Notes under the pieces: model-generated
What the model was told of the DNA's origin: nothing
The model's database searches: none
What the model saw: only the letters and a program-made list of their open reading frames with translations
Source of the DNA: a bacterium
Lineage (GTDB): Bacteria; ARS69
DNA: 9,935 bases
Direction: 5' to 3'
Assembly (NCBI GenBank): GCA_025774865.1
Contig: JALGZO010000286.1
Location: forward strand, 1-9,935
Program-made: the position numbers and the translations under genes
Shown: positions 3,231 to 9,935 of the stretch, in pieces
How the letters are laid out: the number at the start of each line of letters is the position of its first letter
Position numbering within the stretch: position 1 is the first letter of the stretch

Positions 3231-4613
3231 ATGCGCAAGGCCGTCGGATTCACCTTCTTGTCGGTCCTCGGACTCGCGTGGGGCCTCGGGGCCGACGCTG
3301 ATGGGCCGGGGAAGAAAGTGTTCCTGGTCTACTCCGCCGATGAGAGGTCCGAGCTCGCCCCCTGCGGCTGAAAGGCCAAGGATAAGGGTGGGCTGGCCCG
3401 GCGGGCTGGCGAGATCGAGGAGTTCCAGAAGATCCATCCGCGGGTGTTCGCTTGCAGCTCGGGCGACATCTTCGAATGGGCGTCGGCGACCCGCGCGCCG
3501 CGCGACGATTCGTTGCTGAAAGCGAATTTCATGGCGCAGGCCCTCGGGCTCTTGGACTACGACGCGATCGCGCTCGGAGAAAAGGACCTGGCCTACGGCC
3601 GGGCGTTTCTTCAGGACGCCGCTAACCAGCACGGCCTGAAGTTCGTCTGCGCCAACGCGATCGACCGCACGACGAAGGAGACCATCTTCCCTCCGTACGC
3701 GGTCAGCGAGCGCAACGGAGTTCGAGTGGCGTTCATCGGCGTCGTGTCCCCGGAACGGCACATCACGGCCCAGGTCGAGTCGGCGCTCCTCGATCACCAG
3801 ATCGAGATCGTGGACCCGACCGAGATGACCATGAAGGTCATGGACGAGATTCGCGCCAAGGCTGACCTCGTCGTCCTCTTGTCGCACACCGGCATCGAGA
3901 GCTCGGAGTATCTCGCCGAGGATCTCCCCGTGGACGTGGTCCTCGTCGGACACTACCCGGCGATCCAACACGACCCGAAGGAGGTCGGGGGCGCCGTGTT
4001 CGCCATGGCCGGATCGAAGTCCGATCGCTTCGGCACGCTGGAGCTGACGCTGACCGAGGACTTGTCCGAGGTCGCGGCGTTCGAGGGTGATGCGATCCGA
4101 CTCCTCTCGAAGGGACCCGAAAACGCGCAGATCAACGCGCTCGCGGTCGAGTCCGACCGGCTGGACAAGGAGCGAAAGAAAGAGCAGCAGCTGGCGAGGC
4201 AGCGGGAACGTGAGGATGCGAACAAGCTACAGACGACCGCGAAGATCCATCAACGGGGCGGCGTGTTCGGGGCCGAGTCGTGCAAGTCTTGCCACGAACC
4301 GGTGTACGACACGTGGATGCAGACACCGCACGCGACCGCATTCGCCACGCTTGCCGAGGCCGACTCCTGGGACGATCCGGACTGCATCGGCTGCCACGTG
4401 ACGGGCGTGGAAGACAAGACCTACGTGGCGGACGTCAACTTGCCGCCCGAGGTCTGGAACGTGCAGTGCGAGGAGTGCCACGGCAGTGGACTCCAGCATG
4501 CGCGCGACGGTTCCTACATGACGAGTGGCGAAGCCACTTGCCGCAAGTGCCACGATCCGGACAACAGTCCGGAATTCGACTACGAGCTGTACTCGTCATA
4601 CGGAGTGCACTGA
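3231..4613 (+). CDS. Probable selenocysteine-containing periplasmic tetrahaem cytochrome with 5'-nucleotidase-like (metallophosphatase-fold) domain
   Basis: Encodes 460 residues if TGA 3369 is read as selenocysteine (residue 47). ATG 3231 has a strong Shine-Dalgarno and begins a clear Sec-type signal peptide: basic MRK, a hydrophobic core, and a GADA cleavage site near residue 23/24. A metallophosphatase/5'-nucleotidase-like domain follows. Asp37, Asp79, SHTG (His219) and VGHYP (His241) are recognisable, but the usual D-x-H is SADERSE and the usual GNHE/D is LGEKDL, so the dimetal site looks degenerate and phosphatase activity is doubtful. The motif Pro44-Cys45-Gly46-TGA47 and GGLARRA (53-59) matches the PCGC...GGLxRR segment I recall from Cys-containing relatives. 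After a charged helical linker (about 304-343) come four CxxCH haem c sites at 351, 385, 413 and 437, in a cytochrome c554-like pattern that includes TPHATAF and a C-terminal SPEFDY. The protein should act in the periplasm as an electron-transfer or redox enzyme; its substrate is unknown. The alternative is a nonsense mutation or base error at TGC. Confidence 0.8.
3369..3371 (+). other. In-frame TGA, predicted selenocysteine codon (Sec47)
   Basis: This is the only stop triplet between ATG 3231 and the terminal TGA at 4611. It directly follows Cys-Gly (TGC GGC), giving Cys-Gly-Sec. Both flanks keep strong G/C third-position bias and protein-like sequence: 46 codons upstream, and 24 codons downstream before the next possible start at 3444. 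In relatives as I remember them this position is Cys, and TGC to TGA is the classic Cys/Sec exchange. Confidence 0.75.
3392..3410 (+). promoter_or_regulatory. Candidate bacterial SECIS hairpin
   Basis: Eight pairs (3392-3399 with 3403-3410: GCTGGCCC against GGGCTGGC, including two G:U pairs) close a GGC loop. The loop starts after 28 nt of sequence downstream of the TGA. A G as first loop base and this spacing fit what is known of bacterial SECIS elements, which lie inside the coding region just after the UGA and bind SelB. The alternative pairing 3374-3378 with 3394-3398 (GGCCA/TGGCC, 15-nt loop) would exclude it. Local GC is high, so chance hairpins are likely; the support is moderate. Confidence 0.5.
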
Positions 4614-5584
4614 TCCGACTCCGCCTCCGGGCGGTCGCGGCGGCGACCGGCGTGGCGCTCTTCGTGCCGAGCCCGGCCGGAGCGTGGGGCGAGCGGACCC
4701 ACGAGATCATCAACCGCCGCTCGATCGAGTTCCTCCCCGAGCCGGCGCGTTCGGAGTGGGCGGCGATGGCGCTCCCCCTCGGCGCCCATGCGAGTGACGC
4801 CGATCACCGCAAGAGCCGCGTGCCCGGCGAGCGCCCCCGTCACTTCATCGACATCGACGTCTACGACGAGCACCCGTTCGACGACGTGCCGCGGGACCTC
4901 GAGGAGCTCGTGCGGAAGCGGGGTCGGGAGGAGGTGGACCAGTGGGGCACCGTGCCGTGGGCCATCGAGGAGTGCTGGCGGATGCTCGTCCTGTCTCTCG
5001 AACGCGGCGACTGGAGCTCCGCCGGAGCGTGGGGGGCGGATCTCGGGCACTACGTCGCGGACTCTCACCAGCCGCTCCACTGCACCGTGAACTACGACGG
5101 CCAGAACACGGGAAACGATGGCGTGCACCTGCGCTTCGAGGTGCACATGATGAATCGGCACTTCGACGAGACCCTGATCGACCGGACGGCCCCGCTTCCG
5201 GATCCGGGGGGAGACGTGGTCGAGTTTTGCTTCGGCTGGATTGCGGCCGCCTACCCCGGTCTCCACCCGATCCTGCGCGCCGATACGGAGGCGCGCGAGG
5301 CTGATTCCGGGCACGGCGACGCCTACTATCAGGAGATGTGGTCCCAGACCCGGGATCTTGCGACCTCCCAGGTGACCGCCGCGGCTCGAGATCTGGCCGC
5401 CCTCTACCTGGCCGCCTGGGAGGAGGCAGGGAGCCCGCCCGGGCCCGAAATTGCGCCTCCGTTCTCGGCTCTGCCCCCGGAGGTTCTCGACCCCCCCCAG
5501 ACGCGCTCCGGGACCGCCCACCGGGGGGCCTGGCTCACCGCGGCCGCGATCCTCGTCTCGGCGCTCGTCCTGGGGAGCCGCTGA
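4610..5584 (+). CDS. Secreted zinc-dependent S1/P1 nuclease / phospholipase C family protein
   Basis: Encodes 324 residues from CTG 4610. The family uses three zinc ions to cleave phosphodiester bonds in nucleic acids or phospholipids outside the cytoplasm. From CTG the protein begins with a 25-residue signal peptide ending PSPAGA, so the mature chain starts at Trp26. This is the hallmark N-terminal Trp whose amino group binds zinc. The other ligands line up by spacing: His31, Asp63, His78, His147-x3-Asp151-x5-His157 (within LGHYVADSHQPLH), His173 and Glu177. Trp-x4-His is S1/P1-like, while His173-x3-Glu177 is phospholipase C-like. A hydrophobic C-terminal segment (about 308-322, with a final Arg) may anchor it in the membrane. 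No ATG, GTG or TTG stands at the right place: GTG 4547 would give a 46-residue leader, and GTG 4652 would destroy the signal peptide. GGAG at 4602-4605 precedes the CTG, which overlaps the upstream TGA (CTGA), suggesting translational coupling. Substrate class is undecided. Confidence 0.85.
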   Translation: MIRLRLRAVAAATGVALFVPSPAGAWGERTHEIINRRSIEFLPEPARSEWAAMALPLGAHASDADHRKSRVPGERPRHFIDIDVYDEHPFDDVPRDLEELVRKRGREEVDQWGTVPWAIEECWRMLVLSLERGDWSSAGAWGADLGHYVADSHQPLHCTVNYDGQNTGNDGVHLRFEVHMMNRHFDETLIDRTAPLPDPGGDVVEFCFGWIAAAYPGLHPILRADTEAREADSGHGDAYYQEMWSQTRDLATSQVTAAARDLAALYLAAWEEAGSPPGPEIAPPFSALPPEVLDPPQTRSGTAHRGAWLTAAAILVSALVLGSR

Positions 5585-5700: not shown

Positions 5701-6066
5701 ATGAGCGCCAAGAGAATCCTCGTCGTGGACGACCAGGAGAGCATGCGTGACATGCTCGCGGATCTCCTCGACATGATGGGGTACGCCCCGCGGGCGGTGG
5801 CGGGCGGGGCCGAGGCGCTCCACGAGCTCGAGGCCGGCGGCATCGATCTCGTGATCACCGATCTGAATATGCCGGTGATGGACGGGATGGAGCTGATGAA
5901 GCAGATCAAGTCCCGCACCCCCGACCTCCCGGTCATCGTCATCACCGGGTACGGCACGTTCCACACCGAGAGGCAAGTTCTCTCCAGCGGTGCCGATGGC
6001 TACATCCCGAAGCCGTGCACGATCAATCGCGTGCAGGAAACGGTGAGCGCCGCCTTCGGCGAGTGA
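5701..6066 (+). CDS. Stand-alone CheY-like response-regulator receiver protein
   Basis: Encodes 121 residues, a single receiver domain with no output domain. The phosphorylation set is complete: acidic pair Asp10-Asp11, phospho-acceptor Asp54 within ITDLNMPVMDG, switch Thr82 in VITGYG, and Lys104 in PKPC. Such proteins act by binding partners or passing phosphate along a relay in the cytosol. No histidine kinase or motility gene is in the window, so the partner is unknown. ATG 5701 is preceded by GGGGGAG at 5686-5692 with 8 nt spacing, a good ribosome binding site. The 116-nt spacer before it, with a hairpin near the upstream stop, suggests its own promoter, although I find no clear -35/-10 pair. 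The methyltransferase start lies 37 nt downstream, so it may be co-transcribed with the bacillithiol genes. Confidence 0.93.
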   Translation: MSAKRILVVDDQESMRDMLADLLDMMGYAPRAVAGGAEALHELEAGGIDLVITDLNMPVMDGMELMKQIKSRTPDLPVIVITGYGTFHTERQVLSSGADGYIPKPCTINRVQETVSAAFGE

Positions 6067-6090: not shown

Positions 6091-6096
6091 TATGCT
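6091..6096 (+). promoter_or_regulatory. Possible -10 element for a near-leaderless bacillithiol operon transcript
   Basis: TATGCT lies 7 nt before ATG 6104, which has no Shine-Dalgarno sequence. The same hexamer occurs at 3161 ahead of the cytochrome gene. A transcript starting near the ATG would be leaderless. No clear -35 is seen, so this is weak. Confidence 0.2.
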
Positions 6097-6103
6097 CCAC
6101 GCC

Positions 6104-6853
6104 ATGTCCTGGGTCTTGGACGCATTCGGTCCCTGGTATCCGACCATCTACCCCCACCGAAACGACGCCGAGGCGGCGCGATTGCTCGCAACGCTGGCCG
6201 AGAACGTGACCTTGGCCGGGCGCCGCATTCTCGACGTCGGCTGCGGCGCGGGCCGTCACCTCGTCCGCCTCCGGAAGCTGGGATCCGATCCGGTCGGGCT
6301 CGATCTCTCGCCATCGCTCCTGGCGGAGGCTGCCCGCCACGGGCGGGAGGTGGGGGTCCGGGTCCCCCTGGTCCGGGGTGACATGCGGCACCTGCCGTTC
6401 GCGAGCCGCCGCTTCGACGGCGTCACGAGCCTGTTCACGAGCTTCGGCTACTTCAGTCGCGACGAGGATCGCCGGGTGGTCCGTGAGGCGACCCGGGTCC
6501 TCGTCCCGGACGGATTTCACCTTCTGGACTTCCTGAACCGCGATCGCGTGCTCGCGCATCCCAACCCCGAGAGCGAGCGTGAATCGGAAGGGTATCGAAT
6601 TCGGGAGCGCCGCCGGATCGAGGATCGGGGCGGTCGCGTGGTCAAGCGCGTGACCGTGCTCTCGAAGGACGCCGAGGAGCCGGTCATCGACTACGAGGAG
6701 CGGGTGAACCTCTGGGGGCCGGACGAGCTGCGCTCGCTTCTCGAGAGCGCCGGACTTCACGTGCTTCAGGAGTGGGGCGAGTACGACGGCTCCCCGTTCG
6801 AAGCCGGGTCGAGCTCCCGGCACGTGTGGCTGAGCCGCAAGGAGAGGGGATGA
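6104..6853 (+). CDS. Class I SAM-dependent methyltransferase, coupled to bshC (candidate bacillithiol N-methyltransferase)
   Basis: Encodes 249 residues with a Rossmann-like methyltransferase fold. Motif I is ILDVGCGAGRH (42-52), followed by an acidic GLDLSPSLL strand end, GDMRHLPF (92-99), FTSFGYFS, a DFLNRD segment, and a C-terminal YDGSPF motif typical of small-molecule SmtA/UbiE-like enzymes. The N-terminus reads MSWVLDAFGPWYPTIYPHR, matching the W-x-x-x-F...Y...HR opening I recall for this family. For that reason ATG 6104 is preferred over ATG 6092, which would add four residues. Neither start has a clear ribosome binding site. The stop overlaps the bshC start as ATGA. Green sulfur bacteria make N-methyl-bacillithiol with a SAM methyltransferase called NmbA. 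The coupling here makes a similar role plausible, but orthology cannot be judged from the sequence alone, so no symbol is given. Confidence 0.9.
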   Translation: MSWVLDAFGPWYPTIYPHRNDAEAARLLATLAENVTLAGRRILDVGCGAGRHLVRLRKLGSDPVGLDLSPSLLAEAARHGREVGVRVPLVRGDMRHLPFASRRFDGVTSLFTSFGYFSRDEDRRVVREATRVLVPDGFHLLDFLNRDRVLAHPNPESERESEGYRIRERRRIEDRGGRVVKRVTVLSKDAEEPVIDYEERVNLWGPDELRSLLESAGLHVLQEWGEYDGSPFEAGSSSRHVWLSRKERG

Positions 6854-8490
6854 GCTTGACCGTGTCCGCACGCGCGCCCGTCTCCGTCGCACCGATCGCG
6901 GACGGTTTCCCGGGCGCCTGGCTGCGGGGCGACCCCAAGGCGCGTCCCTTCCTACCGCGACACCCGTCGGTCGAGGGCGACTGGACGGCACGAATCGACG
7001 AAGTCGATCGCACGCCGCCGGCGGTCGAGGTCTGGGAACGGGCTCGGGCCTGTGGCGAGCGTCTAGGAGCGTCGAGCGAGTCGACCTCGAACGCACGCGC
7101 CCTGGCGGACGGCTCCACCCTGTGTGTCACGGCGGGGCAGCAGCCGGGGCTCTTTCTCGGTCCTCTCTACACGGTGTACAAGGCGATGACGGCGGTCGCG
7201 CTGGCGCGGAGCCTGGCGGCACGAGCCGAGCGGACCGTCGTCCCGGTGTTCTGGAACGCGGCGGACGACAGCGATTTCGACGAGATCGGTTCGGCGGTCC
7301 TGCCGGATCCGGATTTCCGACTCACGAAGCACTCGCTCGCCGGCGGCGATCTCGCGGCCGGCGGGATGGTCGGTGATCTCTCCACGGACGGTACGGCGCG
7401 CGCCGTCGAGGAAGCCCGCGAGCTCCTGCGTGGCCGATCCGCGGGAGAGGCGATTCTTCGTCACCTGGACGGAGCGGTCTCGCGGGCGAAGGACCATGGC
7501 GAGATCGCGACGGCGCTCCTCTACGATCTCTTTCGCGGAACGGGGCTCGTCGTCGTCGATGGGAGGTGGCCGGAGCTTCGTCGCGCGGCCGCGCCCCTGT
7601 TCGAGCGGTACGCGAAGCAACGCGAGGCGATCGGCCGGGCGGTGATGTCGGCGGGAGCCGATCTCGAAGAATCGGGATACCGTGCGCCGATCGCCGAGGT
7701 GTCCACGCACTCCGCCCTCTTCGAGCTTCGCTCTGGGCGAAGGCATCAGTTCGAGGGAACCACCGACGAGCTGCTGAAGCGGATCCGCGAGGCTCCGGAG
7801 ACGCTGTCGCCGAACGTGATGCTCCGTCCCGTGGTTCAGGATTCGCTATTTCCGAACGTGGCGACGGTCGGGGGGCCGGGCGAGGTCTCCTACCACGCCC
7901 AGCTCTCGCCGAACTACGAAGCGCTCGGCGTCTCGATGGCCATTCTCTTCCCGCGGTTCGAGGCAACGCTCGTGCCACGGGGAGTGTACGAGCTCGCCGA
8001 GCGTCGCGGCGCTTCCGTCGAGGCGTTCGTGCTCGACTTCGACGCGGCGATGAAGAAGACCGCACCACGGGCGCTGCCCGAAGCGCTCAAGGTGGCGCTC
8101 GACGGCTTCGAGGCGCGCGTCGTCGGCGACGCGGATCGGCTGCGAGAGGAGGCCGCGAGCTTCGATGCGGGCCTGACCGGCGCGGTCGATGAAGCGCTGC
8201 AGCGGGCGCAAGACGCCGTGCGGAAGCTGCGGGGCAAGGCGGCGGGTGCGGCGCGCGCGGCGGAGAAGCGTCGCGATCCGTCAGTGAAGCACTACCGGGA
8301 ATTCTTGCGCCCCCGGGGAGTTCCGCAGGAGCGAGTGCTCTCGGCCTTGACGCTCTTCCTGGAGACGATCGGGAGCCCCCTGGACTGTCTCGAGGAGGCT
8401 CTCGCCCGGCACGTGGAGGCGGCGCGGGACGGGCGTCCGGGGCATTGGCTCCTCGACTTCGGCGGCTGCCGCGACGGGGAAGCAGCGTGA
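6850..8490 (+). CDS. bshC: Bacillithiol biosynthesis cysteine-adding enzyme BshC
   Basis: Encodes 546 residues, a normal BshC length. BshC is the cytosolic enzyme assigned to the last step, joining cysteine to glucosaminyl-malate to give bacillithiol. Family landmarks are clear: GQQPGLFLGPLYTVYKA (96-112), PVFWNAADDSDFDEI (132-146), LSPNVMLRPVVQDSLFPNVA, and VGGPGEVSYHAQLSPNYE (340-357). A charged helical, coiled-coil-like segment follows (about 425-480), then FLRPRGVPQERVL near the C-terminus. The start is ATG 6850, overlapping the methyltransferase stop by 4 nt, with GGAG at 6841-6844. It overlaps bshB1 by GTGA. The fold resembles class I aminoacyl-tRNA ligases with an added coiled coil. 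I saw no disruption. Confidence 0.95.
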   Translation: MSLTVSARAPVSVAPIADGFPGAWLRGDPKARPFLPRHPSVEGDWTARIDEVDRTPPAVEVWERARACGERLGASSESTSNARALADGSTLCVTAGQQPGLFLGPLYTVYKAMTAVALARSLAARAERTVVPVFWNAADDSDFDEIGSAVLPDPDFRLTKHSLAGGDLAAGGMVGDLSTDGTARAVEEARELLRGRSAGEAILRHLDGAVSRAKDHGEIATALLYDLFRGTGLVVVDGRWPELRRAAAPLFERYAKQREAIGRAVMSAGADLEESGYRAPIAEVSTHSALFELRSGRRHQFEGTTDELLKRIREAPETLSPNVMLRPVVQDSLFPNVATVGGPGEVSYHAQLSPNYEALGVSMAILFPRFEATLVPRGVYELAERRGASVEAFVLDFDAAMKKTAPRALPEALKVALDGFEARVVGDADRLREEAASFDAGLTGAVDEALQRAQDAVRKLRGKAAGAARAAEKRRDPSVKHYREFLRPRGVPQERVLSALTLFLETIGSPLDCLEEALARHVEAARDGRPGHWLLDFGGCRDGEAA

Positions 8491-9221
8491 CGGTTCTCGC
8501 GTTCGGCGCGCATCCCGACGACGTCGACCTCTACGCCGGTGGGCTCGTGGCGGCGCTGACGCGGCGGGGGGTGGAGGTCGTTCTGTGCGACCTGACGGCC
8601 GGCGAGCTCGGTACGCGGGGCACTCCCGAGCTTCGCGCGGAAGAAGCGGAGGAGGCGGCGCGCATCCTCGGCATCGAGACGCGCGAGTGTCTCGGCCTCC
8701 CCGACGGCGGCATCGTGCGAACCGACGAGGCGCAGACGCGGGCGGTGGTGGAGTCGATGCGTCGGTATCGCCCGGAATTGATTCTCGCGCCGTACGAAGT
8801 GGATCTCCACCCCGATCACCGGGAAGCGGCGCACCTGGTCCGACGGGCTCGGTTCTTCGCTCGGGTCGACCGGTTCGACGCGACTGGCGATCCCTGCCGC
8901 CCCGGCCCGATCCTCTTCTACGAACAGAAGATCCCGCTCGAGCCGCACCTCGTGGTCGACATCGGGGAAGTGCGGGAAGTGAAGCGCGAGGCGGTTCGCG
9001 CGTTTTCGTCGCAGTTCTTCCGCGCGCCCGACGATCCCGTCCGCACCGAAATCTCGGAGCCCGAGTTCCACGAAATGCTCGACGCGCGCTCGCGCGCGCA
9101 CGGCTCGCGCATCGGGGTCACCTGGGGTGAGGGGTATCGTCGCGACGAGCCCCAGGCCGTTCAGGACCCCGTTCATCTTCTCCCGGGGACGCGTCTCGCG
9201 AGGAAGGTGGAGCACTCGTGA
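8487..9221 (+). CDS. bshB1: Bacillithiol biosynthesis deacetylase BshB1
   Basis: Encodes 244 residues from GTG 8487, which overlaps the bshC stop as GTGA and has GGGGA at 8476-8480. It is a LmbE/PIG-L-type zinc deacetylase that removes acetate from N-acetylglucosaminyl-malate. Motifs: GAHPDDVDLYAGG with His9, Asp11 and Asp12 (zinc/catalysis), DLTAGELGTRGT, PYEVDLHPDHREA with His108 to His111 (zinc side), KREAVRAFSSQF, and a C-terminal GVTWGEGYR. The DLTAGELGTRGT and GVTWGEGYR signatures separate BshB1 from MshB and other PIG-L proteins. An Asp replaces the more usual Glu two residues after AHPDD, a mild change. It lies between bshC and bshA and completes the pathway. Confidence 0.95.
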   Translation: MTVLAFGAHPDDVDLYAGGLVAALTRRGVEVVLCDLTAGELGTRGTPELRAEEAEEAARILGIETRECLGLPDGGIVRTDEAQTRAVVESMRRYRPELILAPYEVDLHPDHREAAHLVRRARFFARVDRFDATGDPCRPGPILFYEQKIPLEPHLVVDIGEVREVKREAVRAFSSQFFRAPDDPVRTEISEPEFHEMLDARSRAHGSRIGVTWGEGYRRDEPQAVQDPVHLLPGTRLARKVEHS

Positions 9222-9935
9222 GAATCGGGATGGTCTGCTACGCCAGCCACGGCGGCAGCGGCATCGTGGCGACGGAGCTCGGCACGGAGCTGGCGCAGCG
9301 AGGCCATGAAGTACACTTCATCACGAACGACGTTCCGGTCCGCATGGACCGGTTCATGGAGAACATCTTTTTCCACCGGGTGGAGGTCGACACCTACCCG
9401 GTCTTCGCGTACACGCCCTATTCGCTGAATCTCGCGGCGAAGATCCTGGACGTCATCAAGAGTCACGGACTCGACGTGATTCACGCCCACTATGCGGTTC
9501 CCCACGCGACGTCGGCGTACCTCGCCAAGCAGATGCGTCGCCCCTGTGACGTGCGCACCGTCACGACGTTGCACGGCACGGACATCACGCTCGTCGGTGT
9601 GAAGCCGTCCTTCTACGAGATCACGCGTTTCTCGATCGAGCAGTCGGATCGCGTGACCGCCGTGTCCGACTGGCTCCGGCAGAAGACCATCGAGAGCTTC
9701 GAGTACGAGAAGCCGATCGACGTGGTCCACAACTTCGTGGACGCCGATCGGTTCCGTCCTTTTCGCGGAGACAAGAAGCGGAGCCGTTTTGCCGCGGCGG
9801 GCGAGTTCGTGATCATGCACGCGTCGAACTTCCGGCCGGTGAAGAACATCCCGACCGTGATCCGGGTGTTCGAGGCGCTGCGCAAGCGCTATCCCGTGAA
9901 GCTCCTCCTGGTGGGGGACGGCCCGCAGCACGCGG
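9218..9935 (+). CDS. bshA: N-acetyl-alpha-D-glucosaminyl L-malate synthase BshA (3' partial)
   Basis: Starts at GTG 9218, overlapping the bshB1 stop as GTGA, with GGAG at 9209-9212. It runs off the window after 239 codons of an expected ~375-380. BshA is a GT4-family glycosyltransferase that joins GlcNAc from UDP-GlcNAc to L-malate, the first step of bacillithiol synthesis, in the cytosol. Landmarks: an N-terminal GGSGIVATELG glycine-rich loop (12-22), GHEVHFIT, FFHRVEVDTYPVF, HAHYAVPHATSAYLAKQM, TTLHGTDITLVG, RFSIEQSDRVTAVS, VVHNFVDADRF, HASNFRPVKN and the start of the donor-binding half, LLLVGDGPQ. These are diagnostic for BshA within GT4. The catalytic C-terminal glutamate region lies outside the window. 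Confidence 0.94.
   Translation, partial: MRIGMVCYASHGGSGIVATELGTELAQRGHEVHFITNDVPVRMDRFMENIFFHRVEVDTYPVFAYTPYSLNLAAKILDVIKSHGLDVIHAHYAVPHATSAYLAKQMRRPCDVRTVTTLHGTDITLVGVKPSFYEITRFSIEQSDRVTAVSDWLRQKTIESFEYEKPIDVVHNFVDADRFRPFRGDKKRSRFAAAGEFVIMHASNFRPVKNIPTVIRVFEALRKRYPVKLLLVGDGPQHA

Follow-up and report, generated by a model that had tools for sequence, protein, structure and literature searches.

A probable N-methyl-bacillithiol operon in which an NmbA-like methyltransferase gene overlaps bshC

Bacillithiol (BSH) is synthesised by the enzymes BshA, BshB1, and BshC. In Bacillus and Thermus, the pathway operates without methylation. In Chlorobaculum tepidum, the cysteine amine of reduced bacillithiol is methylated by NmbA (CT1040, PDB 9RI2), an assignment based on gene deletion (PMC6282198), and the NmbA proteins of C. 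tepidum and P. polymyxa are active on BSH in vitro (PMC12719100). Polaribacter also makes N-methyl-bacillithiol (PMC6282198, PMC12719100), and the pathway has been predicted in 1,765 species, Gemmatimonadota among them (PMC12719100). N-methyl-bacillithiol, NmbA, and their occurrence in many phyla including Gemmatimonadota are already published. The novelty that the original prediction attached to a lineage outside green sulfur bacteria is outdated in view of Polaribacter, Paenibacillus, and the predicted species (PMC6282198, PMC12719100).

The locus described here shares BshA, BshB1, and BshC with the Bacillus and Thermus pathway, but carries an extra methyltransferase gene heading the bsh genes. 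The C. tepidum genome likewise contains bacillithiol genes. However, nmbA and these genes are scattered in C. tepidum (CT1040, CT0548, CT1419, and CT1558), whereas all four genes overlap in one operon in the window, the whole stretch of DNA analysed.

The gene run and its junctions

The window is an entire contig of 9,935 bases from a genome of 4.7 Mb in 785 contigs. Its forward strand sequentially encodes a predicted SAM-dependent bacillithiol N-methyltransferase (nmbA, 6104–6853, 249 residues), named from its PDB match and family residues; bacillithiol synthase, the cysteine-adding enzyme (bshC, 6850–8490; TIGR03998, PF10079); GlcNAc-malate deacetylase (bshB1, 8487–9221, GTG start; TIGR04001); and GlcNAc-malate synthase (bshA, 9218–9935, GTG start; TIGR03999), the 3′ end of which lies past the contig end. 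BshC and BshB1 score above the cut-offs of their NCBIfam equivalog models, with 325.5 bits against 265.8 and 258.6 bits against 182.5, respectively. BshA reaches 347.5 bits against a cut-off of 273.7 despite being cut by the contig end, covering profile positions 2–241 of 375. The gene run of nmbA thus holds a full bacillithiol gene set, with BshA truncated, in which every member exceeds its cut-off.

Each of the three junctions is a 4-nt overlap. The sequence ATGA at 6850–6853 joins nmbA to bshC, which starts at ATG 6850, and GTGA joins bshC to bshB1 at 8487–8490 and bshB1 to bshA at 9218–9221. These stop–start overlaps suggest that the four enzymes may be co-translated at matched levels by translational coupling. 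The coordinates, gene names, and gene order given in the original prediction are all correct, as is the overlap of the methyltransferase gene with bshC. Its description of the methyltransferase as fused into the operon is loose, overlapping being the better word: the genes overlap in different frames, which rules out a methyltransferase–BshC fusion protein.

An alternative in-frame ATG for nmbA is present upstream, at 6092. The start at 6104 is favoured because the N-terminal residues W3 and F8 are conserved. A promoter scan upstream of the nmbA–bsh operon found nothing.

Relationship of the methyltransferase to NmbA

The best PDB match of the methyltransferase in a phmmer search is C. tepidum NmbA (CtNmbA, 9ri2), with an E value of 2.1e-38 and 135.6 bits; the runner-up protein scores 64.6 bits, about half as much. 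The alignment to CtNmbA covers residues 9–245 of the 249 in the query at 36% identity and runs through the cap as far as the C-terminal G(D/E)Y(D/E)GSPF motif. NmbA homologs were defined in PMC12719100 by an E value of at most 1e-20, coverage above 80%, and identity above 25%. The window protein falls within all three limits, its E value being derived from a PDB-sized database rather than from a RefSeq search as in that study. None of the NCBIfam models matched by the methyltransferase names NmbA and all scores are far below cut-off, so NCBIfam neither supports nor refutes the identity.

Relatives from Chlorobiota/Ignavibacteriota, Bacteroidota, the bshC-linked group, and Paenibacillus were compared with about 20 other methyltransferases to locate positions conserved in NmbA relatives but not in the others. 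The specific positions found include R19, A24, D142, N145, K181, E199, Y227, and R239, all of which are kept in the window protein. Their equivalents in CtNmbA include R33, D161, N164, K198, E214, Y242, and R254. The numbering was verified on Y134 and F135 of CtNmbA, which are named in PMC12719100. The original prediction had called for a comparison with NmbA of green sulfur bacteria, and this comparison shows a relationship: CtNmbA outscores every other PDB entry by a wide margin, along almost the entire protein, and every family residue is present.

The AlphaFold model of the methyltransferase has a pLDDT of 93, and its predicted fold is similar to that of CtNmbA. The top structural match is 9ri2 with a Z score of 27.6, but 3d2l and 7wzg, two class I methyltransferases, are tied with it within one Z unit. 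Fold alone would not decide the NmbA identity because of this tie. The cap strands of NmbA are unusually arranged in the crystal, and AlphaFold is reported to mispredict the CtNmbA cap (PMC12719100).

A tree of 42 rows places the window protein and CtNmbA in one group of 28 rows with moderate support (85/86). In a larger tree, the deep branches form an unresolved comb, and the data neither establish nor reject a single clade of all NmbA-like rows (p-AU 0.37). There, the window protein belongs to a mostly bshC-linked branch with members from Gemmatimonadota, Planctomycetota, and Fibrobacterota (support 94/89).

Linkage and co-occurrence with bshC

BshC was sought in the genomes that contributed 50 homologous loci. 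It is present in 35 of the 36 genomes with NmbA-clade genes and in none of the 14 with other methyltransferases (Fisher p = 1.6e-11, kinship ignored). Among five genomes of the window's phylum, the three that contain both genes all have nmbA immediately before bshC; of the remaining two, one lacks both and the other carries a partial NmbA at the edge of a contig.

In a sample of 121 Gemmatimonadota genomes, the matches to an NmbA model split into two score classes. For all 50 members of the high class (237–274 bits), the next gene downstream is bshC, in the same orientation, whereas none of the 40 members of the low class (141–168 bits) is linked to bshC. The high-class pairs resemble the window in gene order and strand, form its nearest branch in the tree, and often have a similarly tight stop–start junction. 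They differ in belonging to another phylum, and the likeness rests on nmbA and bshC within short flanks.

The low-class methyltransferases (loci L125–L133) lack most NmbA-specific residues and could pass as NmbA under loose similarity cut-offs. In 15 Gemmatimonadota genomes, the low-class gene is on the same contig as bshC at a distance of 109–170 kb and always on the opposite strand. The two classes indicate that similarity cut-offs alone may mix NmbA with look-alikes. Linkage to bshC provides a practical marker for separating them.

Of 149 Planctomycetota genomes, 71 have NmbA, 82 have BshC, and 69 have both (Fisher p = 2.6e-26); the two genes are adjacent in 40 of these 69. An nmbA–bshC pair is also present in a Fibrobacterota locus (L024), and a bshB gene is found near the nmbA homolog of an Ignavibacteria locus (L021). 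Apart from L021, the Chlorobiota and Bacteroidota loci examined have no bsh genes nearby, bshC having been sought with lineage-specific queries as well. Divergent bshA and bshB of these groups could be missed, since such queries were used for bshC only. A search of the window's incomplete genome for the bacillithiol disulfide reductase YpdA/Bdr returned flavoproteins below the cut-off, the best with 142.7 bits against 339.9.

The nmbA–bshC order recurs in other genera of the window's phylum and in other phyla, and is thus beyond chance; linkage in other phyla rules out an accidental neighbourhood. The orthologs therefore keep the company that the original prediction had expected of them, with bshC linkage conserved in the window's phylum, Gemmatimonadota, Planctomycetota, and Fibrobacterota.

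The main texts of PMC6282198 and PMC12719100 do not mention an operon or a gene neighbourhood for nmbA. An nmbA–bshC operon was likewise not found in a wider literature search, which had subscription journals and supplementary files outside its scope. On these grounds, the operon conserved across several phyla is probably a detail of a known system that has not been described before. The frequency of this operon in Planctomycetota, a phylum not named in the main text of PMC12719100, and its presence in the small phylum of the window also seem to be unreported. The operon and the co-occurrence with BshC give independent genomic-context support for NmbA function beyond the three tested lineages. 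They also add about half of the sampled Planctomycetota and the window's small phylum to the likely producers of N-methyl-bacillithiol.

Predicted product, alternatives, and neighbouring genes

The locus is, with high likelihood, an N-methyl-bacillithiol operon. This reading draws on CtNmbA as the best PDB match, the family residues, the co-occurrence with BshC, the linkage in several phyla, and the three lineages with tested members. BshA, BshB1, and BshC would produce bacillithiol, and NmbA would then methylate the cysteine amine of its reduced form. The bacterium very probably makes N-methyl-bacillithiol, as nmbA sits in a tight operon with three bacillithiol genes. We infer the enzyme activity, methylation site, co-expression, and cellular product from homology, conserved residues, and gene context. 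The pathway in another lineage, as originally predicted, is supported by the NmbA match, the family residues, and the bsh linkage.

The bshC-linked branch, which comprises the window's phylum, Gemmatimonadota, Planctomycetota, and Fibrobacterota, is unlikely to be functionally distinct, with its NmbA–BshC pair making the methylated thiol only or a differently methylated bacillithiol. Quite unlikely, too, is methylation elsewhere on bacillithiol or a precursor, such as N,N-dimethylation or modification of the malate carboxyl or a sugar hydroxyl, which would yield a different methylated thiol. The separate position of the branch in the larger tree and the identity of about 36% to CtNmbA would be compatible with such a change, as would the fact that CtNmbA also accepts the secondary amine of a by-product (PMC12719100). 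However, the enzyme keeps all family residues, which also occur in lineages with enzymes that act on the cysteine amine. A different methylated thiol was also the alternative offered in the original prediction, and it gained no positive support.

It is highly improbable that the enzyme is a general small-molecule methyltransferase with an unrelated substrate, located beside bshC for operon reasons only. Class I methyltransferases are abundant, several distant paralogs are encoded elsewhere in the genome, and the Pfam matches are to generic domains only. These points are countered by the multi-phylum linkage, the near-strict co-occurrence with BshC, and the low-scoring Gemmatimonadota methyltransferases, which are never linked to bshC. 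Least probable of all is a route in which cysteine is N-methylated first and BshC ligates N-methylcysteine to GlcN-malate: the position of nmbA next to bshC, and not next to bshA or bshB, makes a coupling to the cysteine step conceivable, but CtNmbA acts on finished BSH in vitro, the C. tepidum deletion leaves BSH, and N-methylcysteine was never seen (PMC6282198, PMC12719100).

Upstream of the predicted N-methyl-bacillithiol operon, a single-domain response regulator (5701–6066, forward strand; PF00072, E value 1.8e-29) ends 37 nt before nmbA. The same gene is also found directly upstream of nmbA in two other genera (L007 and L008), which makes three genera of the phylum in all, and it is possibly the first gene of the operon. 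Further upstream, a frame at 4613–5584 on the forward strand contains S1/P1-nuclease-like motifs, identified by eye only. In L007 and L008, this frame is likewise conserved in front of the response regulator. The forward-strand gene at 3–1610 encodes a protein with FG-GAP repeats and a C-terminal FlgD_ig/sorting-type domain and is cut by the contig start.

The segment at 3231–4613, also on the forward strand, encodes a UshA-like/multihaem protein with an in-frame TGA at 3369–3371, within APCG*KAKDKGGLARR. The part downstream of the TGA matches NF041198, the 'UshA-like (seleno)protein' PCGU, with 248.7 bits against a cut-off of 275, the N-terminal part being excluded from this score. The protein very likely belongs to this known selenoprotein family, with selenocysteine at the TGA. 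The genome contains a tRNA-Sec candidate that scores 72.7 bits against a gathering threshold of 47.
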